IMG/VR virus record: IMGVR_UViG_3300020196_000034
Location: 1 to 62,650 of that record
Direction: 5' to 3' (one strand)
DNA length: 62,650 bases
DNA from: a virus
In this document: piece by piece, positions 30,390-62,650 of the stretch
Numbering within the stretch: position 1 is the first letter of the stretch
Layout: the number at the start of each line of letters is the position of its first letter
Made by a program: the position numbers and the translations under genes
The notes under the pieces: generated by a model
Told to the model about the DNA's origin: nothing
Databases searched by the model: none
The model's input: only the letters and a program-made list of their open reading frames with translations

Positions 30390-31106
30390 TTAATCTTTTT
30401 TTTCTGAATAATTAAACGATGCCTTTATTTGATTCCTATCAAAATTATCGACATCACTTTGTCTTAAAACATATTCATTTTCTTCTTCACCTTCTACATC
30501 GTAACCATCTTTATCTTTCCAAAAATCAGTTAATTTTACACTATATGGAAAAGAGTCCATAGATCTAAGTTCTAATCTTTCAACAGGTGTAGGATTTCTC
30601 TTTTCTATTTCCTTTTCTAACGAATCTATCTTATCAATAACTTTATCCATACCACTAACTTGTTGTTCTAACTCTGATAATTTGGCAAGTAAATCCTCCA
30701 TTTTATTACTTACATTATCTACAGATTTTTTTGTTTCTTCAGTATTATCTACAATATCTGTTACATCAACTTCAATAGTATCATCACCTTCATCCGCAAA
30801 TTCATCTTCTATTTCAACTTCCTCAGCACCTGTTGTAGTTTCAGTGTCACCAGTAGTTGGTGCTTGTCCACCTTCGTCATCTGTAGTAGTTTCAGTGTCA
30901 CCAGTAGTTGGTGCTTGTCCGCCTTCGTCATCTGCGACATCCATAAAAGGATCGTCACCTGCAGGATCTTGTTCAGTTAAAAAAGAATCATCTAATAATA
31001 AATCTCCATTTAAATCTTTTTCTTTTTCTTCTGGCACATAAAAAGTATATTCTAAAAGTTGTTTATACCTTTTTAAATCTTCAGAAATAAGTCTATTTTT
31101 ATTCAT
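30390..31106 (-). CDS. Acidic coiled-coil protein with an N-terminal targeting-like peptide
   Basis: This 238-residue protein starts MNKNRLISEDLKRYKQLLEY, similar to the N-termini of the suspected packaged proteins, with L-x-E sites at 17-19 and 43-45. Residues 59-92 are two exact copies of a 17-residue acidic unit (DDEGGQAPTTGDTETTT). Residues about 125-170 form a coiled coil (SNKMEDLLAKLSELEQQVSG). The composition is very acidic, like T4 prohead core proteins. It may be a prohead core or internal protein, although it sits beside replication genes. No known family was recognised. Confidence 0.65.
   Translation of the reverse strand: MNKNRLISEDLKRYKQLLEYTFYVPEEKEKDLNGDLLLDDSFLTEQDPAGDDPFMDVADDEGGQAPTTGDTETTTDDEGGQAPTTGDTETTTGAEEVEIEDEFADEGDDTIEVDVTDIVDNTEETKKSVDNVSNKMEDLLAKLSELEQQVSGMDKVIDKIDSLEKEIEKRNPTPVERLELRSMDSFPYSVKLTDFWKDKDGYDVEGEEENEYVLRQSDVDNFDRNQIKASFNYSEKKD
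30831..30932 (-). repeat. 51-bp tandem duplication, two copies
   Basis: Two adjacent 51-base units, nearly identical in DNA, encode identical 17-residue acidic segments at residues 59-75 and 76-92. The small number of differences suggests a recent slippage duplication. Confidence 0.9.
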
Positions 31107-31111
31107 ATTTT

Positions 31112-31300
31112 TTATATTAAAAGTTGTCTACCATCGTTTGTTTTGTAAACTTTATTTACTCTCTCAACAATTTCTTTTCCATCATTTATCAAACATTCAT
31201 CTCCAACACACTCTTCAGTTTGGTTTGGTTTGTTAGATAAAAAATTATCTAATTTAGATTCTAAATTTTCGCTATTTTTTTTATTTTTATTATCTTCCAT
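31112..31300 (-). CDS. Small unknown acidic protein (62 aa)
   Basis: Family not recognised. It is hydrophilic, with one Cys pair in TEECVGDECL. It lies 5 bases before the acidic coiled-coil gene, on the same strand and presumably in the same transcript. The C-terminal half (IVERVNKVYKTNDGRQLLI) may form a small beta hairpin. The tight spacing, intact frame and ATATTTATT motif upstream support it as a gene. Confidence 0.65.
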   Translation of the reverse strand: MEDNKNKKNSENLESKLDNFLSNKPNQTEECVGDECLINDGKEIVERVNKVYKTNDGRQLLI

Positions 31301-31316
31301 AAATTTGTTTTTTATT

Positions 31317-31325
31317 AATAAATAT
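31317..31325 (-). promoter_or_regulatory. ATATTTATT motif before the 62-aa gene
   Basis: The ATATTTATT variant in sense orientation in the 32-base gap, 16 bases before the ATG at 31300. Confidence 0.3.
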
Positions 31326-31332
31326 CTACTAT

Positions 31333-31743
31333 TTAAGAAAAATCTCTAACTATATCTATTATTTTTAACTCTTCATTTTTAATGATTATAATTTTATTCT
31401 GGTATTCATCCCAATTTATTTTATAATCTAAATGATTAATGTTACCGTTTTCTAAGTAATTAATTTTTTCAATTAATTTATTTAAGGCATTAATAGTATA
31501 AAAACATTCACCTTTTTTATGGACAATTACAGTTGGTGGGATTATTGATGTGATATCCACTCTACCTTCATTTTGTAATATAACTCTATATGTTATAAGT
31601 TTTTTATTTTTTTCTTCATAAGAATAAATAAAAACATTTTCTTCGTTTATTTTAAATCTTTTTTTTAAATATTTTTTAAAAGAATCTATTTTATCTGTAT
31701 AAATAAAAGATGCTAACGTAATAATTTTATTAGTAGTTTCCAT
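31333..31743 (-). CDS. Unknown protein (136 aa)
   Basis: Family not recognised. A small alpha/beta protein with FYTINALNKLIEKINYLENG followed by INWDEYQNKIIIIKNEELKI. It overlaps the 199-residue gene by 14 bases, so the two are probably coupled. It is placed at the head of the unit leading to the acidic coiled-coil gene. No membrane segment, signal peptide or catalytic motif is present. Confidence 0.72.
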   Translation of the reverse strand: METTNKIITLASFIYTDKIDSFKKYLKKRFKINEENVFIYSYEEKNKKLITYRVILQNEGRVDITSIIPPTVIVHKKGECFYTINALNKLIEKINYLENGNINHLDYKINWDEYQNKIIIIKNEELKIIDIVRDFS

Positions 31744-32329
31744 TTTTAATAATATAAGGGATTAATCTATTTTTATTTTTTATTTTATAAATAAAATCCC
31801 CATAATTATTAAATATCTCAGAATCTATCAAAACATTATTTTTTAAATTTTTTATTTTTTTAATAACTTTTTCCTTCTTATTTTCAAAATAACTAATAAC
31901 ATTTAAATCTATCCCAAATATTATATTATCCCCATAAACATAAACCATATTATTATCTGAAATGTATATATATGGATTAACTAGTGAAAATATTTTTTTA
32001 ATTATTTTTTTATTTATCGATTTTTTACCATAAAGTAAATCTAAATATACATATGGTATGTTATTACCAAAAGTATTGTAACAAAATTCTTTGAAACCCT
32101 CTAAATCTACTTCAAAATCAACTTTCCTTTCCTTTGGTGAAAATGTCCAAAAAGTTTTTATATTTATTGTTTTATGAAGAATAGAAACTTTATTTTCATA
32201 AATTTTTTTTGTTAATTCCCAACCAATTATTATTGTAGGTAAATCATTGTCAATGATTTCATCTGAGTTAAACTTTTTAAATCCGTCTATACGAATTTCT
32301 GAATCTGATATTATATTTCCAAAATACAT
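31730..32329 (-). CDS. Unknown protein (199 aa)
   Basis: Family not recognised. The N-terminal half (LPTIIIGWELTKKIYENKVS, then IKTFWTFSPKERKVDFEVDL) looks like a folded alpha/beta domain; the C-terminal half is Lys/Ile/Asn-rich. It begins the unit 32329-30390. A TATATTTG element ends only 4 bases before the ATG, so the transcript may be leaderless. Confidence 0.72.
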   Translation of the reverse strand: MYFGNIISDSEIRIDGFKKFNSDEIIDNDLPTIIIGWELTKKIYENKVSILHKTINIKTFWTFSPKERKVDFEVDLEGFKEFCYNTFGNNIPYVYLDLLYGKKSINKKIIKKIFSLVNPYIYISDNNMVYVYGDNIIFGIDLNVISYFENKKEKVIKKIKNLKNNVLIDSEIFNNYGDFIYKIKNKNRLIPYIIKNGNY

Positions 32330-32333
32330 ATTG

Positions 32334-32341
32334 CAAATATA
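32334..32341 (-). promoter_or_regulatory. TATATTTG -7 element before the 199-aa gene
   Basis: Exact TAnnTTTG on the minus strand, 4 bases before the ATG at 32329. The nearest upstream TTG is about 26 bases away, longer than the usual 19-20, so the -33 part is weak. Confidence 0.4.
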
Positions 32342-32366
32342 ATAATTTTTTTTTAAAATGTTAAGG

Positions 32367-44261: not shown

Positions 44262-45413
44262 TTAATTATCTATATATTCTAATATTTTACCACTCCAAAC
44301 AGTTTTAATATTACTAATAGAACCGTCAGCGTTAACAACCCAAAAAGCGTTGTTTCCTTGTGCTTTTTTTACCTTTTCAGTGTCAAACCCCATAATATAT
44401 CTATTAGTTGTACCTTCTTTTTGTACTAAAACTGTATCACCTCTTTCTCCATAAGTTTTTAATATTTCAAATTTTACAACCTGATCATCATTATATAATG
44501 TTGTAGTAGATCCACCACCACCAGGACTATATGTTACATCACCATTAAACTTAATTAACATGTAATCGTGAAGAACTATTTTTTCACCAACAGATTTATT
44601 ACTTGAATAATCTTTATACTTTTCGGTTTCTTTATTATAACCTTTTATTTTATAAAATTGTTGTAAATCACTAATCATATCATCTATTAAACTTTCTGCA
44701 TCCTCATACCAATCTTCTAATTGTGAACAAGATAAAGAGGTTTTATCCCTATCATCTTTCTCAATTATATATTTACCATATTTATTTTCACAATAATCCC
44801 AAGTAGATAATAAATCTTCTTGAATTTGTTCTGGTTGATCAGCAATTGAGGCTTTATATACATTTATATCCGCTTTACCACTATCCTCTTCTACATTATC
44901 ATCAAATATTGTTAAACAATAACATCTACTATGTTCTACTTTTTTTCCATATCTTTCGGCATATTTTTTCATTTGTAATGCCGCACTAGCAACTTTTTTA
45001 ATTCTACTTATTTGTCTAGGACCATATTTTAATACTTTCCCAGCAACTCTTATAGTTGTCCCCCTAGCTAATACAATTTTTTCTAAATCTTCTGCACTTA
45101 TTTCATCACTAGATAAAAAATCTAAAAGTCCATCATCAGTCATAGATTCCATATCAACCACCTCTATTTCTATTTCATCACCTACTTTTACGTCACTTTT
45201 ATATTCTTTAGCATCTTTTAATTCAATATAAAATTCAGTATCAGTGTTAGGAGGTAATTGATCATCTTCAACTACCGTAAACTTTTGTTTTTTTGTTTTG
45301 ACTTCTCCATTAGAATCTGGTGTAACAATTATACCTTCACCTAAAAGATTATCAATAGACTCAGACATTAAATATAGTATGTCTAAAATTTTTCCGTTTT
45401 TTTTATATAACAT
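44262..45413 (-). CDS. Unknown protein upstream of the tape measure (383 aa)
   Basis: Family not recognised. An N-terminal acidic part with a small beta domain (DVKVGDEIEIEVVDMESMTD) is followed by a helical Cys-containing middle (EHSRCYCLTIF, WDYCENKYGKY, SLSCSQLEDWYEDAESLIDD). The C-terminus is a beta part with a Gly-rich turn (YSPGGGGSTT). It lies between the frameshifted assembly protein and the tape measure with only 1 base to the latter. A start at Met16 (45368) is also possible. A hub or tape-measure-associated role is inferred from position. Confidence 0.7.
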   Translation of the reverse strand: MLYKKNGKILDILYLMSESIDNLLGEGIIVTPDSNGEVKTKKQKFTVVEDDQLPPNTDTEFYIELKDAKEYKSDVKVGDEIEIEVVDMESMTDDGLLDFLSSDEISAEDLEKIVLARGTTIRVAGKVLKYGPRQISRIKKVASAALQMKKYAERYGKKVEHSRCYCLTIFDDNVEEDSGKADINVYKASIADQPEQIQEDLLSTWDYCENKYGKYIIEKDDRDKTSLSCSQLEDWYEDAESLIDDMISDLQQFYKIKGYNKETEKYKDYSSNKSVGEKIVLHDYMLIKFNGDVTYSPGGGGSTTTLYNDDQVVKFEILKTYGERGDTVLVQKEGTTNRYIMGFDTEKVKKAQGNNAFWVVNADGSISNIKTVWSGKILEYIDN

Positions 45414-46421: not shown

Positions 46422-48749
46422 TTAATATCCACAATAACTTTTTTGTTTATCGTACCAATAATTAAAGGCATCGTCCCAATCCGCATCTAATCTATCTATT
46501 GAAGGGAAAATAGGTTCAAAGTGATCATCAAAAATAGAGAATAATTGTAGACTCCTATTAGCCTTATTTCTAGGGTCAGGACTAAACCATTCTTCTGTAA
46601 CATCAACATTACATTCTAATTTAGCAACACCCTCAACCCATAAGTATTCCATTAAATTTTTTGATTTTGATGAATCTTTTCTATTTTCATCACACCATAC
46701 CTCAAAATCATTAACTATGTTAACGTCAATCTCTTCTGTTTCTTCTGCACCTGTATTACATTTTGCCTCTACAACTACCATATCAATCCAATTTCTAAGA
46801 ATTATAAAAAATTCATCTAAATTAGTAACTTTACCAAAAATATCTTGTCGTTTCATTATATCAATATATACCTTTGGATTTTTAGTATTGGTTTTATCTG
46901 AAACATTAACTGTAATATATCCCGCATCACCATAAGATTTTAATTCATCTACTCTCTTATAGGCTTCATTCTTTATCGATTCACAATCTTTTGTCGCAAC
47001 AATATCTAATATTTCTTGATATATTTTTTGTACACGTTTCTCAACACAAGGTAAAGCTTGTTGGTTACATTTCATTCTAAGAATTTCTTGAAATGTCATA
47101 GGTTTACCTTCTTCTGTTAAATATCCTGCAACTGTTTTATCAGTTTTTGCCTTTTCTAAAATATCAATAACCAGTGATTCAGTATTTTCTATACCACTTC
47201 TATTGGCAATTTCTTTTAATTTTTCAGGACTCAACTTTTTAACAACTCCTTCATATATTTTCATAAATTTAGGATCTGCAATAATTGTTTTTAATTTTTC
47301 GTCATTATTACATTCCATACAACATTTTTCATTCCCACTTGTATCGGGAGGACATATTTTTTCTATTTGTGTTATTATATAACCGTCAAATTCCTGAAAA
47401 GGTCCTAAAATTTCACTTCTCCATATATCTTCTAAATCTACTACACTAGAAGCAAATGTCAATATCCCCCAACCACATTCCGCAAATCTTTTTATATAAC
47501 TAGTATCTGTTACCGCTTCTCCACCACTACTTTTTTTCCTAAGATATATTGACTCAGGATCTAAATCTGCCGCTGAAATTAAACAATAAGTAGTGGCTAA
47601 AAGTAAAGTCGCCCCAACAGTTATATAAGTACCTATCATTATCTTATTTCTTAATAACTGAAACCTAGCCAATTTTTCAACCGCGCTTAAACCTTCATCT
47701 TTATTACCTGGTGCAGTAAAATCTAATCCTCTATCTTGTAAATATTTTTTATAGGAGTTAAATTGATTTTTAGATTTAAATTCTAAAATATATGTTTTAC
47801 CATTACTTTTATTATGGTAAATAATAACATTCTCCCAATTTAAATCTTTAGTAGATAATTTTTCTAATTTTACCCTAATTTTTTTGTCCCCCCAAAACTT
47901 CAATTTATTTATAAAACTACTTTCCATTATTTTAAATTTAGGGTCATTAGAAAAATTATCTTTCAAAAGGGTTCTAAAATCCTTTCCGTCCCATTCACTC
48001 ATCCCTATTTGTTCTTTAATCCTTCTCCAAATATCATAAAGTTCTTGTTCCTTTGGTGTACTACCATTTTTTAAATCATCTAATCTTTTAAAATTATTTT
48101 CTAATTCATCAATAGATTTAATACCATCATCACTTACAAAACCTAATATTACGTTTCTAAAATCATCAGGTTTATTTAATTTATTCCACATTTCATTTAT
48201 TTTATTTAATTTATCTAAATGAAAATCTGTAATAACTAATTGGTTCATTAAGTAATTTAATTTAGTTAATTCATCTATCTGTGAAGGAGTTAAATTCCTC
48301 AAAACATCTGCAGGCATTTCCATAGTATTACCCATTATATAATTTTTTAAATTAACTCTATTTACTGAAATATTTTGTTCATCAAAATATTTTAAAAAAG
48401 TAGTGGTTAAATTTTCTGCAAAATTATCCATTGTTATTCTTAGACTTTTTGCATTTAATAAATTTTTAAGGTTTTCAAATGAACCACCTGATCTTATATT
48501 CCTTATCGCAGTATCATAATTATCGATTGCATCACCCATTCTTTCAGCACTATTCTCTAAATTTTTTAGAGACGGAGTGTTAAAATTAATGGATCTTCCT
48601 ATATTTCTTGTCGATTTAATTAATTCATCACCAATACCCTCAACTATTAATTTTTTTAAACTTGTACTAACTTCATTGAACGTTTTAAAACCATTCATTC
48701 TCTCCATAAGAAGTTTTATATTATTTATATTCGACTCAAAATTTTTCAT
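46422..48749 (-). CDS. Large putative packaged protein with a membrane segment (775 aa)
   Basis: Residues 1-26 (MKNFESNINNIKLLMERMNG, then FKTFNE) resemble the targeting peptides of neighbouring genes and end in F-x-E; the following VSTSL recurs as VSTS at the same place in the 634-residue Cys-rich protein. The rest of the N-terminal half is helical. About residue 365-390 is a strong hydrophobic helix (IMIGTYITVGATLLLATTYC), followed by a Cys-bearing part (CCMECNNDEK) and an acidic C-terminus. No enzyme motif was found. The start overlaps the end of the 1164-residue gene. Delivery from the head into or across a membrane is a hypothesis. Confidence 0.65.
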   Translation of the reverse strand: MKNFESNINNIKLLMERMNGFKTFNEVSTSLKKLIVEGIGDELIKSTRNIGRSINFNTPSLKNLENSAERMGDAIDNYDTAIRNIRSGGSFENLKNLLNAKSLRITMDNFAENLTTTFLKYFDEQNISVNRVNLKNYIMGNTMEMPADVLRNLTPSQIDELTKLNYLMNQLVITDFHLDKLNKINEMWNKLNKPDDFRNVILGFVSDDGIKSIDELENNFKRLDDLKNGSTPKEQELYDIWRRIKEQIGMSEWDGKDFRTLLKDNFSNDPKFKIMESSFINKLKFWGDKKIRVKLEKLSTKDLNWENVIIYHNKSNGKTYILEFKSKNQFNSYKKYLQDRGLDFTAPGNKDEGLSAVEKLARFQLLRNKIMIGTYITVGATLLLATTYCLISAADLDPESIYLRKKSSGGEAVTDTSYIKRFAECGWGILTFASSVVDLEDIWRSEILGPFQEFDGYIITQIEKICPPDTSGNEKCCMECNNDEKLKTIIADPKFMKIYEGVVKKLSPEKLKEIANRSGIENTESLVIDILEKAKTDKTVAGYLTEEGKPMTFQEILRMKCNQQALPCVEKRVQKIYQEILDIVATKDCESIKNEAYKRVDELKSYGDAGYITVNVSDKTNTKNPKVYIDIMKRQDIFGKVTNLDEFFIILRNWIDMVVVEAKCNTGAEETEEIDVNIVNDFEVWCDENRKDSSKSKNLMEYLWVEGVAKLECNVDVTEEWFSPDPRNKANRSLQLFSIFDDHFEPIFPSIDRLDADWDDAFNYWYDKQKSYCGY

Positions 48750-48751: not shown

Positions 48752-51700
48752 CTATAACGTAATTTTATTTTTTATTAAATCATCTAAATTTATTGGTCCA
48801 TTTAAAGATGAACCTAATTTCTCTTCAACAAATTCTAATATTGTTGTACATTCATTTGAGGAATCTTTTAATGATTCAGCTGTCCCACCATTTTCACTAT
48901 TTAAACCTAATAAAGAAGAAAGATCTGCGTCTATTACCCCTAATTTTAAATTAGTTTTAATCGCCTTTTTATCTTTATCCATAAGTCTAACTATTAAACC
49001 ACTAGTTAAATTTATTACACCTGAAGACTCATTCCAAAAACCTTCTATTTTTATTAACCTTAACCCCATACCAAACTCTTTTGTTGCACTATCATAACCG
49101 TCTTTAGTTATTATCATTTTAAAATTAGAAGAACCTATCGTAATATCTTTTTCACATGCATCATTATCATTTAACATATAATACATATTAAATCTATTAT
49201 TTTCATTTAAACCTTGTTCAAAAAGATTCACTAAAAAAAAGTGATTTTCTCTACTAGTTTTATCTTTTCTATATATACCTAAATAACAACCGTCAGGTGA
49301 TGTTCCAGATTGAAATGATAATTGTGTATTTGATCTGTATTTGTTGTAAATCTTACCTATTTGAGTATTTGGACCCAAACATAAATCTCCTTCATTACTT
49401 TGTCTAACAATATAACCTTTATCCTTTAAAAAATTAATTGCTTCAGATTCATTATCACATACTTCGTTAACTAAATTTCCATATAATCTTTCGTCTGAAA
49501 ATAATGATTTCATTCTTTTTATTTCTTCATTTAATTTTTTCATACCCTCATCTATTTTTTTTGGAACTTGATTTCCTTCACCTGTCATTAACATATTTTG
49601 AAATTCGTCTATTTGTTCATCCGTCAATTCAGTATCCCCTGTAACTAATACCGCAGTTTTAACTATTGGTTTAATATTAGGTTTTGTCATAGTTTTTAAA
49701 ACAACTATTTTATCATTAATTAAATTAATACCTTCCTGTTCTGTATAAGTTTTATTTAATATACCTTCTAAAATTGGATTAACTAAATCTATTACCTCTT
49801 TTATATCTTTATGTTTATATCTTTTACCATTTATCTGAAAAGCCACTTCTTTATTTAGTAATAAAGCTGCCGCTTCTAAAGATTTGTTAGGTAATTTTAT
49901 AATTTGTTGGATATTAAGATAAAAATTTACTAATAAATCAGTTTCTTCTTTAAAATTTTTCTTATCTATAAACCCACTCTTAGATAACTGAGAAAATAAA
50001 CTATCTATTTTTTCTTCATTAGAAATGATATTAGTAAAATCTGGACTAAGTTTAGAGTTATCTATCTCACCGTTAGAAGTAAAAACGCCTAATGGATCAA
50101 AACCAGTTTTATCATAAAGAGCTTTTAACGCTTTACCTAATTCTTCACTATAAACATACATACCAGCAAATAAAGATCCTTGTATAATAACTTGTTTAAT
50201 ACCTTTATTGTAAGCATTAACCATTTTACTTAAATTTTTATTTGACTTAGTATATAATTTTTCTAAATTAGCGGGTGTTTCTTTCTTTAACATTTCTGCA
50301 AAAACACCTTTTTGCATTTTATCTAATTTATTATATTCATTTGTAAATTCACCACCTTTACCAAATTTATTAATTATTTCATCACTATTAGCAACCTTAC
50401 CAAAATTCTTAAATTGTTTAGCTTCATCAGGAGATAAAGTTCTTGCAAAATCTCTTAAAATTTGTCTACTTTTAATTGGGTCACCATCTACCATTTTTAA
50501 AGCTTTGGTTAATTCTTCTAATCTACCTGTAAATTTAGAACCATATTTTAATAATTTCCCTGCTTCTGCTAAACCACCAAATGCACCTAACATAGTTAAT
50601 CCTGCATTTAATTTCCATCCTTCTTTACCCTCTATCACATAACCAGCCGCACTTATTGCATCAATTATACCACTAATTAAAATACCATAAGGACCAATTG
50701 CCAAAACTACGATAGAGGCAATGTCTGCAATACAATGCCAATCTTCAGCACAATCTTGTGTCCATTGATCAAATCTATCCCACCCACTTAGAACGTTACC
50801 AGTACTTTTACCACACCATTCTTCTATATTAATAGTAGCTTGATAATTTCCTTCCGCACCTTTTACCGTTACATTAGCATTCCCTTTTGGGTTAACACAA
50901 CAACAAATAGCCCTACCACCAATAAATCCTTTTCTTTTTACACCACCTTCCACTTCTTCAGATTGTGATGGGTACATAAATATCCCACCATTTTTAGAAC
51001 ACGCTTGTTTCCAAGTAAAAGTTTCATTAATTTTAGCACCTCCGCCACCTGATCCTGGTGCCGATACAGGTACAGAATATGTTTTCACATAATAAACTGG
51101 ATCTGAACATGCATTATTTAATTTTTCGGGAGTATTATTTCTAATAATAATATTATGTAACTCAATTTGATCTAACACTATCTTATATGTGTTATAATCT
51201 TCTAAGTATTCTTTGAATTTAGGACCAGCTTTTTGTAATATTTCTTTTTCTACTGAAGGGACATCTTTTTGGAAAGAATTTAACAGTTTCGCCATTTCTG
51301 GATTTTCTTTTTCCATTTTAGATAAAATGTTAAATTCTTTTTCTTTTTTATTATTTGTTTTCGGATAGATATTTTGCATTTCAGTATCAAATCCTAATCT
51401 ACCCATAATTGCTTGAGGATCAATTTGTGTATTATATTCACGTATTGATTGATACATCTTAACCTCTAATTCTTCCATCGATCTCAATATATAAGATGGG
51501 TTAATACATGTTGATGATGATACCTTACCTTCTAATATTTGTTGTATTTTATCAGAATTGACAGTTTTAGGGTTAGTCCACCCAAATGTTTTATTTGAAG
51601 AATCCCAAGATTTTAATGTTTCTAAATAATCTTTATATATACGACTTTGGTTTACGTATTCTGTACCATACTCATTATATCCCTTTTTTTTCTTTTGTTC

Positions 51701-52246
51701 CATCCCAATGACATCCAAAACATAAAATCTACCTAATTTATTAAAGGCAACTTTCATATATTTGTTATCATATGGTGCGTTACTAGTTTTATCTAATGTA
51801 CCAGGTAAACCATTACTTTTTAATGCTTTATTTACATCTTTAATTCTTTGAGGAAAATCAGGATCATTAACCCATAATCTAAATGCGTCAGAATCTTTTT
51901 TACTTTTTATATTTTGTTTAAAAAATTTTTCATTTTCCGCATCAATCCTTTTTTTTGCAATATCTTTATCTTCTACACTGGCAGTAGTTTTCTTACCTTG
52001 ACTAGCTAATAATGCAATTTGTACATCACTATACACATAACTCCATGTACCGTCAGAATTTTTTTTCCAGCACAAACCTTTAGGAACATCTAAATAGTCA
52101 TAATAAGCTGGATGTGTATATAATAATAAATGCTTATTCCACACAGGAGTATATCCTATTTGTTTGACAGTATACTTTGGTGGATCACTTTCATTTAAAA
52201 AAATCCTTTTATACTGATTTTCAGTTATAAAAATTTTTTTTTTCAT
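48752..52246 (-). CDS. Large putative packaged protein with a second, internal targeting peptide (1164 aa)
   Basis: Residues 1-19 (MKKKIFITENQYKRIFLNE) form a targeting-like peptide ending L-N-E. About 492-575 is a Gly/Ala-rich hydrophobic stretch (IASIVVLAIGPYGILISGII, then MLGAFGGLAEAGKLLKYGSK) like the pre-toxin (PT-TG) segments of polymorphic toxins or a membrane-inserting helical hairpin. At residue 902 a Met begins MKKLNEEIKRMKSLFSDERL followed by YGNLVNE, nearly the N-terminus of the next gene upstream (52250-53353). The last 263 residues thus look like a separate gene fused on. A GAGG lies 4 bases before that internal ATG, so internal initiation is also possible. The catalytic role, if any, is unknown. 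Confidence 0.65.
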   Translation of the reverse strand: MKKKIFITENQYKRIFLNESDPPKYTVKQIGYTPVWNKHLLLYTHPAYYDYLDVPKGLCWKKNSDGTWSYVYSDVQIALLASQGKKTTASVEDKDIAKKRIDAENEKFFKQNIKSKKDSDAFRLWVNDPDFPQRIKDVNKALKSNGLPGTLDKTSNAPYDNKYMKVAFNKLGRFYVLDVIGMEQKKKKGYNEYGTEYVNQSRIYKDYLETLKSWDSSNKTFGWTNPKTVNSDKIQQILEGKVSSSTCINPSYILRSMEELEVKMYQSIREYNTQIDPQAIMGRLGFDTEMQNIYPKTNNKKEKEFNILSKMEKENPEMAKLLNSFQKDVPSVEKEILQKAGPKFKEYLEDYNTYKIVLDQIELHNIIIRNNTPEKLNNACSDPVYYVKTYSVPVSAPGSGGGGAKINETFTWKQACSKNGGIFMYPSQSEEVEGGVKRKGFIGGRAICCCVNPKGNANVTVKGAEGNYQATINIEEWCGKSTGNVLSGWDRFDQWTQDCAEDWHCIADIASIVVLAIGPYGILISGIIDAISAAGYVIEGKEGWKLNAGLTMLGAFGGLAEAGKLLKYGSKFTGRLEELTKALKMVDGDPIKSRQILRDFARTLSPDEAKQFKNFGKVANSDEIINKFGKGGEFTNEYNKLDKMQKGVFAEMLKKETPANLEKLYTKSNKNLSKMVNAYNKGIKQVIIQGSLFAGMYVYSEELGKALKALYDKTGFDPLGVFTSNGEIDNSKLSPDFTNIISNEEKIDSLFSQLSKSGFIDKKNFKEETDLLVNFYLNIQQIIKLPNKSLEAAALLLNKEVAFQINGKRYKHKDIKEVIDLVNPILEGILNKTYTEQEGINLINDKIVVLKTMTKPNIKPIVKTAVLVTGDTELTDEQIDEFQNMLMTGEGNQVPKKIDEGMKKLNEEIKRMKSLFSDERLYGNLVNEVCDNESEAINFLKDKGYIVRQSNEGDLCLGPNTQIGKIYNKYRSNTQLSFQSGTSPDGCYLGIYRKDKTSRENHFFLVNLFEQGLNENNRFNMYYMLNDNDACEKDITIGSSNFKMIITKDGYDSATKEFGMGLRLIKIEGFWNESSGVINLTSGLIVRLMDKDKKAIKTNLKLGVIDADLSSLLGLNSENGGTAESLKDSSNECTTILEFVEEKLGSSLNGPINLDDLIKNKITL

Positions 52247-52249: not shown

Positions 52250-53353
52250 TTATTGAACTCTAAATATGGGGTTATTTTCATCACCTTTCATAATAGAAAT
52301 TTTATTTTTATCGACATCTAAATTAAGAGTTTTAAATATTTGTGTTAAAATATTATTTCTAAATATAAGTCTATCACCTTTTTTCTGTATGAATGTCATA
52401 CCTCTTACCCCATTAAATTTATATTGATTTCCAGTTATTTTTTTAATTACCCCTAATTTAGTACCCCTATCATTTTTAACTATATATTTCTCCCCCTCAA
52501 CTCCTTTAGATACTTTACCTTCACCTGTTTTATAATCACCTATTAAAGGATTACCTTCATCATCATTTGTATCTTGTAATTCTCTAACCATTCTTAGAAT
52601 ATCTTCATTCTTCTCAAATCGATTATAAAAATTAGCCATACATCTTTCTACTGATTTATAAGCGTCAGTCTCAAATCCATATTCTTCTAAATCACCAGGA
52701 CCAGCACCTTTTAACCATGCTTTATACATTGCTTTAAGATGTTCTTTACAACTATCTATATTATCATCTATTACGTCTTTATCATTTTTAACATCTTGTT
52801 TAATATCTTTTCTTATACCCTTCCCTTCTTTTTTAGATAAAAAGTTCAATTCTGCATCTTTACTTATAAAAATTTCAACAGGTACACCTTTATCATCTTT
52901 GATAAATCTTTTTACATAGTCTAAATCTCTACCTGGTTTAGGTTTATCAACATAACCAACTTTCATTTTGATTTTTTCAAAAGACATTCGTTTAATATAT
53001 TTTTTTCCGTTTATATCCTTAGTTTCATAAAAATCTAATGAGTCTGCCTCATCACCCTCTATCTCTTTTTTCTTATCATCTGTTAATTCTACAAAACCTT
53101 TAGGTATCATAGTGGTTTTATCATCTTTTTTATCTGTCGTACCACCATCACCCTCTTCATCTTTATCAGATTCACATAATTTTGGGTCACATTGATTAGT
53201 TTGTGGATCATATTTACCATATTTTTCTTTGGTTTCATCATCACATTGACAACCAGGATCATCTTCATTAAGATTTCCATACATTCTTTCTTCAGTAAAT
53301 AAAGATTTAATTCTTCTTATTTCTTCATTTAAATTTAAAATTCTATTTCTCAT
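52250..53353 (-). CDS. Putative packaged protein with targeting peptide (367 aa)
   Basis: The N-terminus MRNRILNLNEEIRRIKSLFT, with YGNLNE ending at residue 30, is the clearest copy of one class of targeting peptide here and matches the internal one in the 1164-residue gene. A short Cys-rich acidic linker follows (CQCDDETKEKYGKYDPQTNQ, C..C..C), then a Lys/Asp-rich domain without membrane segments. The C-terminus (TGNQYKFNGVRGMTFIQKKG) is beta-like. It lies 3 bases upstream of the 1164-residue gene and first in a unit that begins after the tail tube terminator. The family is not recognised. Confidence 0.68.
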   Translation of the reverse strand: MRNRILNLNEEIRRIKSLFTEERMYGNLNEDDPGCQCDDETKEKYGKYDPQTNQCDPKLCESDKDEEGDGGTTDKKDDKTTMIPKGFVELTDDKKKEIEGDEADSLDFYETKDINGKKYIKRMSFEKIKMKVGYVDKPKPGRDLDYVKRFIKDDKGVPVEIFISKDAELNFLSKKEGKGIRKDIKQDVKNDKDVIDDNIDSCKEHLKAMYKAWLKGAGPGDLEEYGFETDAYKSVERCMANFYNRFEKNEDILRMVRELQDTNDDEGNPLIGDYKTGEGKVSKGVEGEKYIVKNDRGTKLGVIKKITGNQYKFNGVRGMTFIQKKGDRLIFRNNILTQIFKTLNLDVDKNKISIMKGDENNPIFRVQ

Positions 53354-54013: not shown

Positions 54014-57000
54014 TTATTTTTTAATAATAATTCTTTTCTTTTTAGGGTTATTTGGGTCAGAGGTATCAAATATATTAAATTGTATATTTGGGTATTTTAT
54101 AATTAATTTTTCTCTAATTAAATTCTCAATTATTTCTAAATTACTTAAATCATCATCACTATAACCAACACTAATACCCTCAAAATTAGGATTATCTATT
54201 ATACCGTCTATTTGTTTTACTACCCTATCAACAAAGTTTTCGAACGCAACCTCTTTTCCTTTTTCAGGTTTACTTTCAGTAGTATCTAAATTAAAATTAT
54301 CTAAAAATTCTTTTGATGAAACTGGATGATAATCTTGTAAACTAAGATATTCTTCTATAGATATACCTTTAAGATTTTTTTCCATTTGTTTTTTATTGCC
54401 ATATGAAAAATTTTTATCTATAATTATTTTAATACCATCTATTAAAGATTTAGGTGAATTCGATCTGGCAGTTATAATAGAAAAATCTTCACCATTAATT
54501 AACGCTTCTTTAAAATCATTAAAACTAGGTGCATAATCTCTTCTATCTAATGCGTAATTAACGTCTTTAATAAAAGAATCATAATTTCTAAAATCTTTAA
54601 ATGCATCATTTATATTATCATTTTTATATCTAAATTCCGAACCTAATTTATGTCTAATAGATCTAAATTGTTCCGTTGATACTGAAACTGGTACCCAATA
54701 TATCCCACCTACCTTGTAATCTAAATGAATTCTTGTTGGCATTTTTAATATATTATCATCCCAATCAAAAGAATAAGTTTTTTTCAATGACTCTGTTAAA
54801 TAACTTTTTTTATAGATAATTGATTCGTTTTTAGTTTCTTCTGTTTCATCATCTGATAAACCACTAGCAATAAATGGTAACAATGCAGGAAATCCACTAG
54901 AAATTAAATTATATGCCTGTCTATATAAACCCTTTTCCATTTTTTTTGCTTGTTCTGGATATATTTTTTTCCATTTTCTTTCTAATTTACCCAGTACTTC
55001 AAAAAAATCTTTAGGTATATTATTAACCCAACTATCTACACTCGATATTTCTTTTTCTAATTTTACCTCATCAGTAATATTTTTATTTAAAAATTTATCT
55101 ATGTATTTTTTAAAAAATTCTTTTATTTTTTCTAAATTATTTAAATCTCTAGGTTTAGGTTCTTCTATATTTATAGAATTTTTGATTCTTTGTAGATCAA
55201 TGTCCACTAATTTTTGTGATTTATCTGTACCCCTTAAATAGTCTACTAAAAATGTGGCAAATCCTTTATTTTTTTCTAATGTACCTAATTCTAATATATT
55301 TTTAATACTGGCAGTAAATTCAGCCTCAATTTCCTGAACATGAGACCAATAACTTAATTCTTTAGATGCGTCCATAACAATTCTTTCTATCTCTCTAATG
55401 TTTAAGTTATTCTCAATAAACTTTAAAAATTTAGCATCATCTAAATTATCAGTTTTTTGTTTTATTTTTTTATATTCATCGTTAAAATTTGACCAGTCAT
55501 CTAAAGAAAGTTTTATAGCTTTAACTTTAACATCATCACCAAATAAATTTGTATTAAATTTAGATGTAACAACTTTTTTGGTAACTTTTTTAATATATTT
55601 TTCAGGAACAATTTTATTATCTTTTGCCCATGTTTTAAAATCTTCTATCCATGTATAGTCTTTACTGGTATCTATATTTTTTTCCGCACCAAATTTTCTA
55701 ACTTCAGATTCCAAATTGTTTATATCGTCTCTTTGCCACACCCAAAAATCAAAATCATCAATTTCTATTTCTTTAGTCGGTGACATTTCTCTTTTACCAG
55801 TTAAATAACCCCAAGCTTCATTACCATCTTTAAAATAACCCGATTTATATGTGTAATTACCATGTATACTAGTTTGATTATTTTGTAAAACATGAGTTAA
55901 TTCATGATAAATTACATGAAATATACTATTTTTTAAATCTTCTAAATTTTTTGGTTTCCTATAATCAGCAATTGCGGTTGGGTTAACTATAACCCATTGC
56001 CCAAAATTACCATTTATATCATTTACATACATTTTTACACCAAATGGAACATCATATCTTTTTAAATATTTACTTCTTAAATTTGGATCTTTTAATATTT
56101 TTTGATTTTTAATCCAATCCATTATAGATGGTATTTGATACCATTCCATGTTTTCAAAAGTCTTATCGAATTCAGATCTGTATAAATCTTCTAATTTATC
56201 ATCTCTTATTTTTATAAAATCTAGCTCTTCTGGTCCTTGTTTGTTTAAAGAAAATTTTACATTTTGTCCATTTATTTGTAATGTCACATAAATTGGTTCT
56301 CCTGTATCTGGATCAAACCCCCAATCTTTATCAAAACCATATTTTTTAAAAGAAGCGTCTATAATGTCATATTCATCTTTTGGGATATCTGATAATTTAA
56401 GTCCCACAATTTGTTGAGGATCATTTTTAGGGATTTCACTTTTAGGTAAATCCTTTTCTTTTTTTGTTGGGTTTTTCAAAATCTGCCAAACTTCTTCCGA
56501 AGTTTTTTTACCTGATCCTAAATCACTTTTTAATTGTTTAAAACCTTCTTCACCATTAATTCTAATATATTCATTTAATTTTTCTGCGAATAATTTGTTA
56601 AAATTACTTTCGATATCATCTATTTTAGTAATCATTTGCCTATTTAATACTTGTAAACTAACAAGATATTCTAAATCATCAGTGTTTATTTTTTTTAAAT
56701 TTTCACCAGATAATTCTTTTCCTTTCACAAAATTAATTAAATCGGTTCCAGAAATATCTTTTGTCTTTATATTTTTTAAAGTTAAATCTTTAATAGTATC
56801 ATCCCAGTTTTTCCTAAATGTAGTAAATTCTGATTTAGTTATTAGTGATTCTATTTCTAATTTTTTAAAAATTAAATTTCCTAAGTCTATAAAATCATTA
56901 AAACTTTTACCAGCACCTTTTAAATTAATTTTTATATCAGGTATATTCTTAAAAATATTTTTACTAGTATCTAAATTTTTGGCAGAATCAATAACATCAT

Positions 57001-57085
57001 CCAACCATCGCTGTTCATTTAAAGGTTTTTTATAAATAAATTCTTTAATTTTTTTAATTTCTTTTTCTGAAAATAATCTATTCAT
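54014..57085 (-). CDS. Putative packaged enzyme: targeting peptide, HExxH metalloprotease-like and HAD-like domains
   Basis: The protein has 1023 residues. Residues 1-24 (MNRLFSEKEIKKIKEFIYKK, then PLNE) form a targeting-like peptide ending L-N-E. H394-E395-L-T-H398 in IYHELTHVLQNN is a zinc-binding HExxH in a beta-helix context (GQWVIVNP upstream), typical of metalloproteases. From about 770, KTYSFDWDDNILKMPT carries the D-x-D nucleophile motif of HAD hydrolases, with FSIITARSN as motif II and GYSDDDLSN as the acidic motif; this resembles the Swiss Army Knife type HAD proteins of phages. A hydrophobic stretch near 755 precedes it. The fusion suggests an enzyme carried in the virion. Substrates are unknown. 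Confidence 0.72.
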   Translation of the reverse strand: MNRLFSEKEIKKIKEFIYKKPLNEQRWLDDVIDSAKNLDTSKNIFKNIPDIKINLKGAGKSFNDFIDLGNLIFKKLEIESLITKSEFTTFRKNWDDTIKDLTLKNIKTKDISGTDLINFVKGKELSGENLKKINTDDLEYLVSLQVLNRQMITKIDDIESNFNKLFAEKLNEYIRINGEEGFKQLKSDLGSGKKTSEEVWQILKNPTKKEKDLPKSEIPKNDPQQIVGLKLSDIPKDEYDIIDASFKKYGFDKDWGFDPDTGEPIYVTLQINGQNVKFSLNKQGPEELDFIKIRDDKLEDLYRSEFDKTFENMEWYQIPSIMDWIKNQKILKDPNLRSKYLKRYDVPFGVKMYVNDINGNFGQWVIVNPTAIADYRKPKNLEDLKNSIFHVIYHELTHVLQNNQTSIHGNYTYKSGYFKDGNEAWGYLTGKREMSPTKEIEIDDFDFWVWQRDDINNLESEVRKFGAEKNIDTSKDYTWIEDFKTWAKDNKIVPEKYIKKVTKKVVTSKFNTNLFGDDVKVKAIKLSLDDWSNFNDEYKKIKQKTDNLDDAKFLKFIENNLNIREIERIVMDASKELSYWSHVQEIEAEFTASIKNILELGTLEKNKGFATFLVDYLRGTDKSQKLVDIDLQRIKNSINIEEPKPRDLNNLEKIKEFFKKYIDKFLNKNITDEVKLEKEISSVDSWVNNIPKDFFEVLGKLERKWKKIYPEQAKKMEKGLYRQAYNLISSGFPALLPFIASGLSDDETEETKNESIIYKKSYLTESLKKTYSFDWDDNILKMPTRIHLDYKVGGIYWVPVSVSTEQFRSIRHKLGSEFRYKNDNINDAFKDFRNYDSFIKDVNYALDRRDYAPSFNDFKEALINGEDFSIITARSNSPKSLIDGIKIIIDKNFSYGNKKQMEKNLKGISIEEYLSLQDYHPVSSKEFLDNFNLDTTESKPEKGKEVAFENFVDRVVKQIDGIIDNPNFEGISVGYSDDDLSNLEIIENLIREKLIIKYPNIQFNIFDTSDPNNPKKKRIIIKK

Positions 57086-57557: not shown

Positions 57558-58151
57558 TTATATTCCTGTTCTTCTGTATTTCATGTTTCTTCCACCTAAC
57601 ACTAAAGCTAAACCTGCAGCAACCATTGCAACTGATATTGGACCAGCATAGTTACCTAGACCTAACGAATCTACATACTGATGAATTTTTTGAGTTAACA
57701 AAAATTCTGACCAACCCATAAAAGAACCTAAAGCGGATACTGCACCTGTTAAAGCTAAACCTGCTCCTCCACCCATCATTGCCTTTTCCATATATTCTGC
57801 GTTCCTACCACCCATATTTCTAGGTAAATCTTCATTTTCTCTAAGATATCTTTCCGCTAAATTACTAGCATTAGAAGAATCTACTTTAGATTGTAAAATA
57901 CTTACTTCAGTAGGATCTAATTCAGGTAAAACATTTTGTTCTAAAAAGTCAGCAATTAGCTCAATTACTTCACCTCTACTTAATTCCCCTTCGTCATTCA
58001 TACCCATTAATTCATCTCGACTATAATCAGATAAATTTAAATTTCCAAATCTTGGGTGTACATCATCCATGCCACCCATATCTTCTTTAATTACTCTTTT
58101 AACTATTCTTCTTAAATCAGATTCAGTTAATCTAACTACTCTTCTTTTCAT
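57558..58151 (-). CDS. Putative packaged membrane protein with targeting peptide (197 aa)
   Basis: Residues 1-23 (MKRRVVRLTESDLRRIVKRV, then IKE) are a strongly basic amphipathic peptide ending I-K-E, almost identical to that of the next gene upstream. An acidic helical region follows to about 120. Then come two Gly/Ala-rich hydrophobic helices at about 126-147 (MMGGGAGLALTGAVSALGSF) and 165-187 (LGNYAGPISVAMVAAGLALV), resembling a holin- or pore-like hairpin. It lies in a group of three such genes after the tail sheath. A role in membrane insertion during DNA entry is inferred. Confidence 0.7.
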   Translation of the reverse strand: MKRRVVRLTESDLRRIVKRVIKEDMGGMDDVHPRFGNLNLSDYSRDELMGMNDEGELSRGEVIELIADFLEQNVLPELDPTEVSILQSKVDSSNASNLAERYLRENEDLPRNMGGRNAEYMEKAMMGGGAGLALTGAVSALGSFMGWSEFLLTQKIHQYVDSLGLGNYAGPISVAMVAAGLALVLGGRNMKYRRTGI

Positions 58152-58203: not shown

Positions 58204-58686
58204 TTATAAATCATTCCACCAACCTGGACCACCACAACCGTATTTTTTTCCACTTGATTTTTTAACAATTAAAAATATTATAATTATCAATAAAATCGCT
58301 GCGATTGCAATTAATACACTTGCAGAAATAGAAACACCTGCAATAATTATAGGGGCCAAATTTTCATTTATTGCTCCTGCAGATTCTGCTTTTTGTTTTT
58401 GTTGTTTAATTTCTCTTCTAAGATTAATTAATTCTTTAACACTTTTACCACTAACTGCATTTCCAAAATTTTTGATAAACTCTATCGCCTCTTCTTTTTT
58501 GTCGGCAGGTAAAGCGTTTAATGTTTTTGTAACCCAACCTGGTACTCCTTTAGCTGAACAGTATTGTGCAACATCAACATCTTTCACCACTTCATCAGCT
58601 TGAGCGGTTTCGTCTTCTTCTTTGATAACTCTTCGAACTATTCGAGTCAAATCTGACTCAGTTAATCTAACTAATCTTCTTTTCAT
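58204..58686 (-). CDS. Putative packaged membrane protein with targeting peptide (160 aa)
   Basis: Residues 1-23 (MKRRLVRLTESDLTRIVRRV, then IKE) are the same targeting-like peptide as in the 197-residue protein, ending I-K-E. A helical domain follows (WVTKTLNALPADKKEEAIEF) with a coiled coil near 90. One very strong membrane helix lies at about 115-142 (IAIAAILLIIIIFLIV and flanks). It ends with a Gly/Trp-rich tail (YGCGGPGWWNDL). The body after the peptide has no recognisable family. Its sequence differs from the 197-residue protein beyond the shared 5' end. Confidence 0.7.
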   Translation of the reverse strand: MKRRLVRLTESDLTRIVRRVIKEEDETAQADEVVKDVDVAQYCSAKGVPGWVTKTLNALPADKKEEAIEFIKNFGNAVSGKSVKELINLRREIKQQKQKAESAGAINENLAPIIIAGVSISASVLIAIAAILLIIIIFLIVKKSSGKKYGCGGPGWWNDL

Positions 58687-58714: not shown

Positions 58715-59062
58715 TTAATATGAACCTCCAGTAGTTCCAGGTACTTTAACTCTATCTCCATCTGAACCGCCCATTTTACCAGCAACACATCTAGAAATAG
58801 GTTCTATTTTACTAAGAATTATTTTTGCCGTTTTTGGATTCATACTCGTTCCACATTCTAATGCTTTAGTAACATCTTTATCAACAATCATTGTTACACA
58901 CGCTTCAGGTATTTCAGTCAAATCTGTTAAAGTTGTATTTTCTTTAATACAATCAAGAACCGCAGTTTCTGGGTCAACACTTTCTCTTAAAAGTTTTTTT
59001 ACAATTCTTCTCATATCTGATTCAGATAAAGTAATCGTTTTTCCGTTTTTTCTAATTTTCAT
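58715..59062 (-). CDS. Small putative packaged protein with targeting peptide (115 aa)
   Basis: The N-terminus MKIRKNGKTITLSESDMRRI with VKKLLRE (ending at 27) is a longer variant of the same peptide, sharing the SESD/TESD-x-RRIVK core. The remaining 88 residues are a small helical domain with four Cys (C33, C49, C65, C78 approximately) and a Gly-rich C-terminus (GTTGGSY). There are no membrane segments. It lies 66 bases after the tail sheath stop, behind a G/C-rich stem-loop. The family is not recognised. Confidence 0.7.
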   Translation of the reverse strand: MKIRKNGKTITLSESDMRRIVKKLLRESVDPETAVLDCIKENTTLTDLTEIPEACVTMIVDKDVTKALECGTSMNPKTAKIILSKIEPISRCVAGKMGGSDGDRVKVPGTTGGSY

Positions 59063-59084
59063 CTCTTTTTATTTTAATTTATTT

Positions 59085-59108
59085 ATTGGGGGATTTACCC
59101 CCCCCAAT
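59085..59108 (-). other. G/C-rich stem-loop between the tail sheath and the small packaged genes
   Basis: The stem ATTGGGGG / CCCCCAAT (8 bp) with an 8-base loop stands out in this AT-rich DNA. No T-run follows on the minus strand, so it is more likely an attenuator or RNA-end-protecting hairpin that lets sheath mRNA outlast downstream mRNA. Confidence 0.6.
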
Positions 59109-59128
59109 TTATTGTTATTATTTATTAA

Positions 59129-61978: not shown

Positions 61979-62024
61979 TTAATTTAATTTATTTTTTATC
62001 TTATTATTTATTAATTTCTTTAAA

Positions 62025-62033
62025 TATAAATAT
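62025..62033 (-). promoter_or_regulatory. ATATTTATA motif before the tail sheath gene
   Basis: Exact ATATTTATA in sense orientation, 46 bases before the ATG at 61978, in the 149-base gap that otherwise shows only AT-rich sequence. Confidence 0.4.
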
Positions 62034-62096
62034 ATTGATTTTTTAGAAAAAATATTTTTTGTGTTGTATAACACAAATTTAGTATGATTTTTATAT

Positions 62097-62123
62097 TACT
62101 TTTGTCATACTTACATATTTATA
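62097..62123 (+). promoter_or_regulatory. Promoter elements before the small RHH-like gene
   Basis: TACTTTTG at 62097-62104 matches TAnnTTTG, although no good -33 TTG is seen. An exact ATATTTATA at 62115-62123 follows and ends 4 bases before the ATG at 62128. Confidence 0.4.
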
Positions 62124-62127
62124 TGGT

Positions 62128-62277
62128 ATGAAAAGAGATAAGAATTTAAAAATTACCCCTATGACTCATAAAATTTTAAAAGATTATTGTGAACAAAATG
62201 GTTTAAAGATGTTTTCTTTTGTAGAAAAATTAATAAAAGAAAAATGTCTCAAACCTAAAGATATATACGGTGAATAA
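62128..62277 (+). CDS. Small ribbon-helix-helix-like protein (49 aa)
   Basis: This short plus-strand gene reads MKRDKNLKITPMTHKILKDY, then CEQNGLKMFSFVEKLIKEKC. A short strand (NLKITP) followed by two helices around the turn EQNGLKMF is the ribbon-helix-helix pattern of small phage DNA-binding regulators (Arc/MetJ type). The RHH dimer would bind DNA through the N-terminal strand. It is the first plus-strand gene right of the sheath operon and could regulate its own promoter or the divergent sheath transcript. The assignment rests on pattern alone. Confidence 0.55.
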   Translation: MKRDKNLKITPMTHKILKDYCEQNGLKMFSFVEKLIKEKCLKPKDIYGE

Positions 62278-62467
62278 TAAAATTATAGTATTTTTAGTTA
62301 TCGTCCCTAAAACTTTTGGTTCTAATTGATACATTCCTGATATTAAACCAATATCAGTTATATTTATGGATGATATGTATGAAAACCCGTATGTTAGAGA
62401 AAATGGTTGGGATCCTGAAAGTTGTACCAATTTTAACCAATTAGAATCATTAATGAAAAATGATTAG
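62270..62467 (+). pseudogene. Small ORF pair split by an in-frame TGA
   Basis: From GTG 62270, overlapping the end of the RHH-like gene, the frame reads NNKIIVFLVIVPKTFGSN, then TGA at 62327-62329, then YIPDIKPISVIFMDDMYENP and on to a TAG at 62465-62467. The two halves join in one frame without a shift, as in a gene broken by a nonsense change. The part from ATG 62366 (MDDMYENPYVRENGWDPESC, 33 residues in all) could also be a separate small gene. TGA is a normal stop elsewhere here, so recoding is not indicated. Confidence 0.35.
62337..62357. other. 8-bp hairpin in the split small ORF
   Basis: The perfect inverted repeat CTGATATT / AATATCAG has a 5-base loop. There is no T-run, so it is not a terminator; an operator or chance are both possible. 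Confidence 0.35.
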
Positions 62468-62520
62468 TAATACAATTATAATTTATATAACCCCTCTACC
62501 ACATTTTTTTCGGATTGTTT

Positions 62521-62529
62521 ATATTTATA
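62521..62529 (+). promoter_or_regulatory. ATATTTATA motif before the right-edge gene
   Basis: Exact ATATTTATA in sense orientation, 15 bases before the ATG at 62545, on the plus strand. Confidence 0.35.
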
Positions 62530-62544
62530 ATTAAACAAAATACT

Positions 62545-62650
62545 ATGAGAACAATTAATGAATATAAGAAAAGATTTTATCAATTAATTGAGTCAACGAT
62601 CGGTGATGTAAAACCATTAATCGTGGAACAATCAACAGGTGATACATTTT
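62545..62650 (+). CDS. N-terminus of a putative packaged protein (cut by window edge)
   Basis: The 35 visible codons read MRTINEYKKRFYQLIESTIG, then DVKPLIVEQSTGDTF. The basic amphipathic start and the I-V-E (residue 28) or L-I-E (residue 16) site place it with the targeting-peptide proteins of the minus strand, here on the plus strand. An A-rich leader precedes it. The rest of the protein lies outside the window, so its function cannot be told. Confidence 0.6.
   Translation, partial: MRTINEYKKRFYQLIESTIGDVKPLIVEQSTGDTF

Follow-up and report, generated by a model that had tools for sequence, protein, structure and literature searches.

Unrelated proteins encoded in virus record IMGVR_UViG_3300020196_000034, whose entire 62,650 bases form the window analysed here (designated G000), begin with short peptides that we consider highly likely to be T4-type capsid-targeting sequences (CTS) that have multiplied and been disseminated in the form of a DNA cassette. 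In the proposed scheme, the basic amphipathic helix of such a peptide (hereafter, tag) would bring an unrelated protein into the prohead scaffold core, and a gp21-type S77 protease would cut past the Glu of an [LI]-x-E site, the same kind of site as in the gp23-type capsid protein. The trimmed cargo would remain in the head with the DNA and, by T4 precedent alone, would probably be ejected into the host. The tag would also serve as a genetic module, with its 5′ DNA passing from one gene to another and becoming attached to new cargo.

The first-pass annotation had claimed tag-like N-termini on ten window proteins (Table 1). All ten are present in the sequence, and nine belong to complete proteins, which total 4,673 residues and occupy 14.0 kb. 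As had been stated, these nine are unrelated in their mature parts: the best blastp pair among all nine has an E value of 0.40. Most of the listed cut sites were kept, and two were settled from relatives detected by their mature part only. In the 48749 protein, FNE26 was replaced by IVE37 (IVE/GIGD; a slash marks a predicted cut): position 26 reads FNQ or FDQ in two of four distinct relatives and FNE or LYE in the other two, and the later site is [LI]-x-E in all four (IITE, ILTE, IITE, LLE). For the 31106 protein, LTE45, an [LI]-x-E site in four of four distinct relatives, was chosen over LLE19, which is one in three of four. With these two sites corrected via relatives, all nine complete tags terminate in [LI]-x-E, with lengths of 19–45 residues. 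The 22438 tag has one distinct relative, G002 161747, which retains INE/VSTSS; the label "Cys-rich OmpA-like" previously given to this protein was not confirmed, as no Pfam or PHROG family matched. The only relative found for the 58204-58686 protein is the identical protein of locus L001.

Table 1. Tags and associated features of the window, with the sites of the first-pass annotation, which came as an unordered list, assigned here to the gene starts.
Feature	Positions	Strand	Site first listed	Remarks
Tag of 20534-22438 protein (634 aa)	22364..22438	(-)	IME25	predicted cut after E25, SYIME/VSTS
Predicted mature cargo, Cys-rich	20534..22363	(-)		without family match
Tag of 30390-31106 protein	30972..31106	(-)	LTE45	predicted cut after E45, SFLTE/QDPA; LTE, ITE, LYE or LKE before Q in 4/4 relatives
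Tag of 46422-48749 protein	48639..48749	(-)	FNE26	predicted cut after E37, KLIVE/GIGD
Tag of 48752-52246 protein (1164 aa)	52190..52246	(-)	LNE19	predicted cut after E19, IFLNE/SDPP
Internal second tag in 48752-52246 protein, residues 902-928	49463..49543	(-)		MKKLNEEIKRMKSLFSDERLYGNLVNE; fused tag protein
Tag of 52250-53353 protein	53264..53353	(-)	LNE30	predicted cut after E30, GNLNE/DDPG
Tag of 54014-57085 protein	57014..57085	(-)	LNE24	predicted cut after E24, KPLNE/QRWL
Internal predicted P1 Glu765 codon of 54014-57085 protein	54791..54793	(-)		SYLTE/SLKKTYSFDWDD; between HExxH part and HAD-like domain
Tag of 57558-58151 protein	58083..58151	(-)	IKE23	predicted cut after E23, RVIKE/DMGG
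Tag of 58204-58686 protein	58618..58686	(-)	IKE23	predicted cut after E23, RVIKE/EDET
Tag of 58715-59062 protein	58982..59062	(-)	LRE27	predicted cut after E27, KLLRE/SVDP; LNE or LKE in relatives
Tag-like start, gene truncated by record end (35 codons)	62545..62628	(+)	IVE28	possible cut after E28, LIVE/QSTG
Small conserved protein	62128-62277	(+)		copies at G002 201069 and 203348 and at G007 28428

The window codes for tail and DNA proteins resembling those of T4: tail sheath, tail tube, baseplate wedge subunits, ribonucleotide reductase, a DnaB-like helicase, an exonuclease and a UvsX-like recombinase. By tail sheath comparison, the window phage has no close isolate: 2,576 phage records match its sheath, all below 60% identity and none covering 80% in one place. 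Relatives in IMG/VR were taken as the best 80 of 319 stretches, and they include G001 (sheath 100% identical, 125.7 kb) and G002 (90%, 253.9 kb). The head genes of the relatives are T4-type and not phiKZ-type, matching gp23 (PF07068), gp20 (PF07230) and S77 (PF03420). Among 16 relatives examined, S77 matches lie in G002, G007 and G010; gp23 matches lie in the same three and in a fragment at the end of G003. The protease is adjacent to the gp23-type capsid protein in G002 and close to it in all three, and because close relatives have it, the window phage would be expected to have it as well.

The first-pass annotation had also suggested looking for the tag cut site in the major capsid protein. 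An alignment of 26 capsid proteins, that of T4 among them, included 25 that retain the N-terminus, of which 20 are distinct in that region. T4 gp23 is cleaved after Glu65 (SFLTE/A), and [LIV]-x-E/[AS] occupies that column in 24 of the 25 proteins, T4 included, a result in favour of the first-pass interpretation; apart from that of T4, these sites are predicted. They read ALLNE/S, SLLNE/S, ALLSE/S, ALLTE/A, HLINE/S, YLINE/A, YMLNE/S, QLISE/A, QIVSE/A and QLLKE/A, and the RM378 protein has LME/T displaced by one column. In T4, gp21 cleaves gp23, and the cleavage rule is L/I-x-E (PMC9026906).

Tags of the relatives show a corresponding site behind their conserved core. Across 112 non-redundant N-terminal cores, [LIVMF]-x-E falls within 8 residues in 96, against 39.5 in shuffled segments (59/64 vs 20.7 for the ITESQLKR flavour and 37/48 vs 18.6 for the NEEIxRIKSLF flavour), and of 28 chance cores inside proteins, only 5 are followed by a site in the next 12 residues. 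For the second flavour this test counts an inner FTE that is not taken as the cut; in the full form, NEEIxRIKSLFTEERLYGNLVNE, the inner FTE is variable (FTN, FTD and FSD occur) and the later [LI]-x-E is usually retained, with a site at residues 9–24 past the core in 40/48 against 18.8 in shuffled segments.

We assessed enrichment with a position-specific scoring matrix (PSSM) built from the nine window cores only and applied to the N-termini of proteins of at least 60 aa, at a score of at least 12. In G002, it matched 20 of 304 N-termini, against 0.5 expected from interior segments and 0.4–0.6 from shuffled N-termini; in six of the 20, the mature part is related to that of a window tag protein. 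Counts elsewhere, with expectations in brackets, were 8/309 (0.5) in G026, 6/304 (0.0–0.4) in G022, 4/425 (0.7) in G019 and 3/415 (0.9) in G042, and the controls crAss001 and phi14:2 gave 1/97 and 0/107. The signature thus recurs in related phages, strongest in G002, in the kind of scan that the first-pass annotation had suggested. T4 gave 1/242, which is background, and the likeness between the tags and the T4 CTS is one seen by eye only.

A set of three regular expressions was drafted after inspecting G002 N-termini; it is an independent test only in G022, G026 and G042, which had not been read, G019 having been searched earlier without being read through. It matched 37/304 proteins in G002 (1.3–1.4 expected), two visible false matches (82558 and 239783) included, 23/304 in G022 (1.5 expected) and 34/309 in G026 (2.1 expected). 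A motif-free test compared the first 35 residues of all pairs of non-homologous proteins per genome (samples of at most 150 proteins, score at least 36). N-terminal pairs outnumbered interior ones in G002 (63 vs 9), in the isolate Flavobacterium phage immuto (24 vs 7) and in G019 (25 vs 12), a few of the listed pairs being tail-fibre-like relatives missed by blastp and not tags. The corresponding counts were 7 vs 5 in crAss001, 2 vs 7 in phi14:2 and 4 vs 7 in T4, where the top pair was IPII/IPIII, a known CTS pair. Phage immuto 2-6A has tag-like starts near its head genes, with predicted cuts MKKQILSEQFRRMQKLAGIITE/SQ (111675), MKKSQLRQIIKE/AL (113188), MENFDLKKFLVENKLTTNSKILKE/NS (118632) and MENNFDIHKWQAKFLKE/ST (125241), and its mature capsid protein is predicted to begin past QIVSE.

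At the DNA level, a pattern encoding M-K-(2 to 8 residues)-T-E-[SN]-Q-[LF]-K-[KR] was found in 70 IMG/VR stretches, against 3 for a permuted peptide. Of 72 such matches, 70 are in frame and 59 have a three-codon gap; a shorter permuted control was in frame in 7 of 30. A cellular genome collection (257 billion bases) contained 41 stretches with this pattern, of which 21 are in frame and four have the three-codon gap; on inspection of these four, three frames stop at 12 codons and the remaining one belongs to the phage record G023. The tag looks like a phage feature. A tblastn search of one tag peptide against isolates gave no match. Among 30 window proteins scanned, none of the nine named by PHROGs as tail or DNA-metabolism proteins carries a tag.

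Most of the tag proteins scanned have no family match in Pfam or PHROG, and PDB sequence searches with the alignment A1 (14 sequences) and with the 48752 and 20534 proteins found no match. An AlphaFold2 model of the 54014-57085 protein (14 sequences) had a mean pLDDT of 57.7 and was not used. The nature of the cargo bears on a reading that we consider unlikely, if far from negligible: the tagged proteins could be scaffold or core components that serve in prohead assembly and are broken down and cleared, as happens to T4 gp22, gp67 and gp68, with few or none delivered to the host. T4 core proteins are likewise gp21 substrates (PMC9026906), and some tag proteins are acidic and of low complexity, such as 30390-31106, whose Pfam matches are all below cut-offs and which has a weak scaffold PHROG match (E 0.044). 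Some cargos, however, are enzyme-like: G002 tagged proteins include Peptidase_M23 (111654) and PG_binding_1 (3469, 4413) matches and, by eye, an HExxH protein (36828), and the window 54014-57085 protein combines an HExxH region with a C-terminal HAD-like domain, both named by eye. The diversity of the mature parts and the arrayed tag genes of G026 also argue against disposable core components.

In relatives of the 48752 protein detected by the mature part, the tag is kept and the sequence directly past the Glu is fully divergent (IFLNE/SDPPKYTV, VFLTE/QDPPKKKG, LFLNE/QYDKPKG); in the 57558 and HAD-like families, the post-Glu sequence is retained as well. The HAD-like protein is a stand-alone gene in most relatives, starting like MNIKITESQYKILKE/TKKKVYSFDWDDN, and in the window and its close relatives it follows the HExxH protein within one fused gene, with the junction SYLTE/SLKKTYSFDWDDN. 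A second HAD fusion, in L075 and L076, has the junction GLLTE/FKKRAYSFDWDDN. All 44 HAD rows that reach the site (of 46; 35 stand-alone, 9 fused) have the junction Glu, preceded two residues earlier by Leu in 43 and by Met in one, and the Glu is invariant in the 14-sequence alignment A1, where Glu765 is numbered 764 (the reference lacks the first residue). Similarly, of 13 long homologues, 9 (the window protein among them; 7 distinct sequences) have the complete internal tag of the 48752 protein (residues 902–928). The second protein of this fusion is a stand-alone tagged gene in L045, L052, L071 and L073; L071 and L073 are two of the four long homologues without the internal tag, and there the second protein is separate. 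Two tag proteins have become internal domains of fusions with the Glu site retained at the junction, and without cleavage, such precise retention of a protease site between two domains is hard to explain.

This pattern also bears on whether the helix targets some other place, such as the tail, the membrane or a host partner, with the Glu motif incidental, which we regard as improbable. Such a destination would suit the membrane-like segments seen by eye in the 57558-58151 and 58204-58686 proteins, and PG-binding and M23 domains are compatible with a role in the tail or in lysis. Against it, what stays invariant at the fusion junctions is the Glu, and the motif is both enriched past the core and matched to the capsid-protein site.

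The DNA encoding the tags appears itself to have moved. The 57558-58151 and 58204-58686 genes are identical at 28 of 30 bases at −30 to −1 and at 58 of 69 in codons 1–23, compared with 17 of 69 in codons 24–46 and 10 of 30 at −60 to −31; DNA likeness is thus lost after codon 23, where the cut is predicted. Seven genes of G026, at 83.9–88.1 kb, begin MNLQE[SN]I[RK][RK][IV]L, with a mean identity of 0.89 over their first 42 bases and 0.29–0.41 in the flanks. A single 35-base start, ATGAACCTACAAGAATCCATAAGAAGAATATTAAG, is present unchanged in 25 IMG/VR stretches, with 34 copies in all, the flanks of the copies having 0.31–0.36 identity. Of 30 distinct occurrences, 27 have proteins of more than 45 residues, which fall into 16 cargo clusters by blastp, a count in which remote kin may be missed; one copy, in L336, stops after 12 codons. 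We read this as recent copying of the tag-coding 5′ DNA onto unrelated genes.

That the conserved 5′ segment is instead an expression element (a start region, or a promoter with early codons), its peptide having no targeting role, seems very improbable to us. The MNLQE DNA is conserved beyond the protein, with 27 identical 39-mers among 42 copies (a number inflated by the search for an exact sequence), and the truncated L336 copy would fit such an element. Another G026 flavour, however, varies in DNA (six genes, mean identity 0.64) with the peptide kept, the IMG/VR pattern matches hold frame and spacing, and the internal tags of fusions lie far from any start codon. Chance, in the sense that Lys-rich N-terminal helices and L-x-E are common in low-GC proteins, is next to negligible and is excluded for the tag family overall by the interior, shuffled, permuted-pattern and phage controls, although single regular-expression matches do arise by chance, as the two false ones in G002 did, and individual members may be such cases.

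Upstream of many starts in the window, G002, G022 and G026, the heptamer TATTTAT occurs within 40 bases at about 4–5 times the shuffled expectation; it is probably a promoter of this phage group, putatively a late one. Genes positive for the regular expressions carry it more often than other genes in G026 (19/34 vs 61/275, Fisher p 9e-5) and in G022 (11/23 vs 61/281, Fisher p 0.009).

Several observations weigh against capsid targeting as the explanation. The gp21-like protease that the first-pass annotation had suggested searching for is present in three relatives, but no S77 match was found in the window, and G003 carries a terminal capsid-protein fragment yet no S77. Among records of more than 50 kb bearing an ITESQLKR-type tag, 13 of 32 lack S77 (19 have it, including 6/6 of those above 200 kb); so do 12 of 23 records from the MNLQE scans (11 have it, with 4/6 of those above 200 kb), and it occurs in only 2 of 24 tag-bearing records of 10–50 kb. 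Capsid proteins have A or S directly past the cut (T in RM378), but past the Glu of the ITESQLKR flavour it is mostly Q (30/62), then D, S and E. The window-trained model is not above background in immuto (1/210), whose tags are of another flavour, and the regular expressions are weak in two of five large genomes, G042 (8/415, 5.2 expected) and G019 (7/425, 2.0 expected); tag load is thus high in three of the five and close to background in the other two. Two relatives, L029 10057 and L065 11924, were called without a tag. Finally, TATTTAT is not enriched at tag genes in G002 (9/37 vs 52/267, p 0.5) or the window (1/7 vs 8/32). A comparison of S77 in tagged and control records of 10–50 kb (2/24 vs 0/26) was too weak and was not used.

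Nine of the 25 records without S77 in the ITESQLKR (over 50 kb) and MNLQE sets, G106 and G109 among them, were followed up. The G002 protease finds no match in these nine; gp23 was not found there either, in a search that had no positive control (the family matched relatives elsewhere), nor was the T4 portal, which was matched in three positive controls (G019, G111 and G112). A T4-type portal was found in 3 of 12 records searched, and all three also have the S77 protease. Seven of the nine match the window tail sheath, G017 by a 23-residue end fragment only. Most likely, the head module is absent from these records because they are incomplete.

A bS21-like gene lies opposite the head genes in G018, G019, G036, G037 and G046 (phmmer E 4e-7 to 0.003). 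A bS21 layout with protease, portal, capsid protein and terminase nearby has been published for freshwater Bacteroidetes jumbo phages (PMC9723584), and because the layout is shared, Bacteroidota are likely hosts for part of the group. The record G023 (IMGVR_UViG_2716884754_000003) corresponds to a contig in a Prochlorococcus single-cell assembly, QCKH01000009.1, with 108 of 108 60-mers of 6.5 kb shared; this origin makes the Bacteroidota assignment less than certain.

Further features were observed in the window and its relatives. The window gene 44262-45413 (-) begins MLYKKNGKILDILYLMSE/SIDN, and its positional counterpart in G007 begins ..NLIVE/QSVS; it is possibly a further tag and was left out of all counts. 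A small conserved protein, approximately MKRDKNLKITPxTHKLLKxYCExNGLKMFxFVEKLIKEKC, recurs close to the tail sheath gene and in the opposite orientation to it (Table 1). Open reading frames (ORFs) of 971–1221 residues for the sheath itself occur in G106, G109, G111, G112, G114, G115, G034 and G039, and the window sheath matches them in two blocks, which suggests inserted segments in these eight ORFs. In G030, G035 and G048 (S77 loci L249-L252), a 632-residue ORF has two S77 matches (profile 43-109 and 39-190) and appears to be a tandem or interrupted protease, and G095 has two separate, widely spaced S77 matches. At 230–242 kb, G002 has a gene block that by eye resembles glycosyltransferase and sugar-metabolism genes.

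Loading into the prohead and trimming, as proposed in the first-pass annotation, are well supported at the level of sequence by the relatives' protease, the matching capsid site and the recurring N-terminal model, and the tag system very probably works like T4 capsid targeting and is a member of it. Like the CTS of T4 IPI, IPII, IPIII and Alt, the tags would be short N-terminal propeptides on diverse proteins, with L/I-x-E sites and an S77 prohead protease; among T-even internal proteins, too, the mature part differs and the targeting sequence is kept (PMC9026906, PMC3012670). Unlike the T4 sequences of 10–19 residues, the window tags span 19–45, they come in several flavours (ITESQLKRIIxE, NEEIxRIKSLF..LVNE, MNLQESIRRILREE), they mark about 20–35 proteins in the richest genomes, and they sometimes lie inside fusions and are copied between genes as DNA. 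The heads of phiKZ and SPN3US (gp175 or gp245 protease) similarly hold a big cargo and use a gp21-related protease that cuts after Glu, and SPN3US has nine known protease substrates, with N-terminal propeptides of 111–254 residues in 6 of 8 (PMC10052503, PMC9026906). In contrast, the tags here are short and common to unrelated proteins, and the head genes are of the gp23/gp20 type. For the bS21 phages, the available parts of the published account hypothesise packaging of bS21 and do not mention N-terminal tags (PMC9723584), and the available part of a virion paper (PMC7077304) does not mention immuto. Within the open-access literature (preprints were outside the scope), we recognised no paper describing such tags in this group and came across no virion data for it; as far as our searches show, what is new is how many proteins are tagged, how varied the tags are, their occurrence in fusions and their spread in the manner of a cassette.

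More tentatively, and with doubt slightly outweighing belief, the ~39–70 nt of tag DNA ending at the protease site may act as a recombination or gene-conversion seam, by which nearly any ORF could become virion cargo and jumbo phages of this group could transport a large stock of injected effectors and swap them with one another. If the capsid-targeting reading is true, dozens of genes of no known role in each genome would gain a predicted location, the virion head, and a predicted mature N-terminus, and candidates for host takeover in uncultured phages could be picked out by a simple signature at the N-terminus. Capsid targeting, known for only a few T4 proteins, would extend to about 20–35 proteins in a genome, and the tags would hint at how cargo is exchanged and would supply natural loading signals beyond that of T4. 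A cultured distant relative, Flavobacterium phage immuto, with its own tag flavour, allows direct testing.

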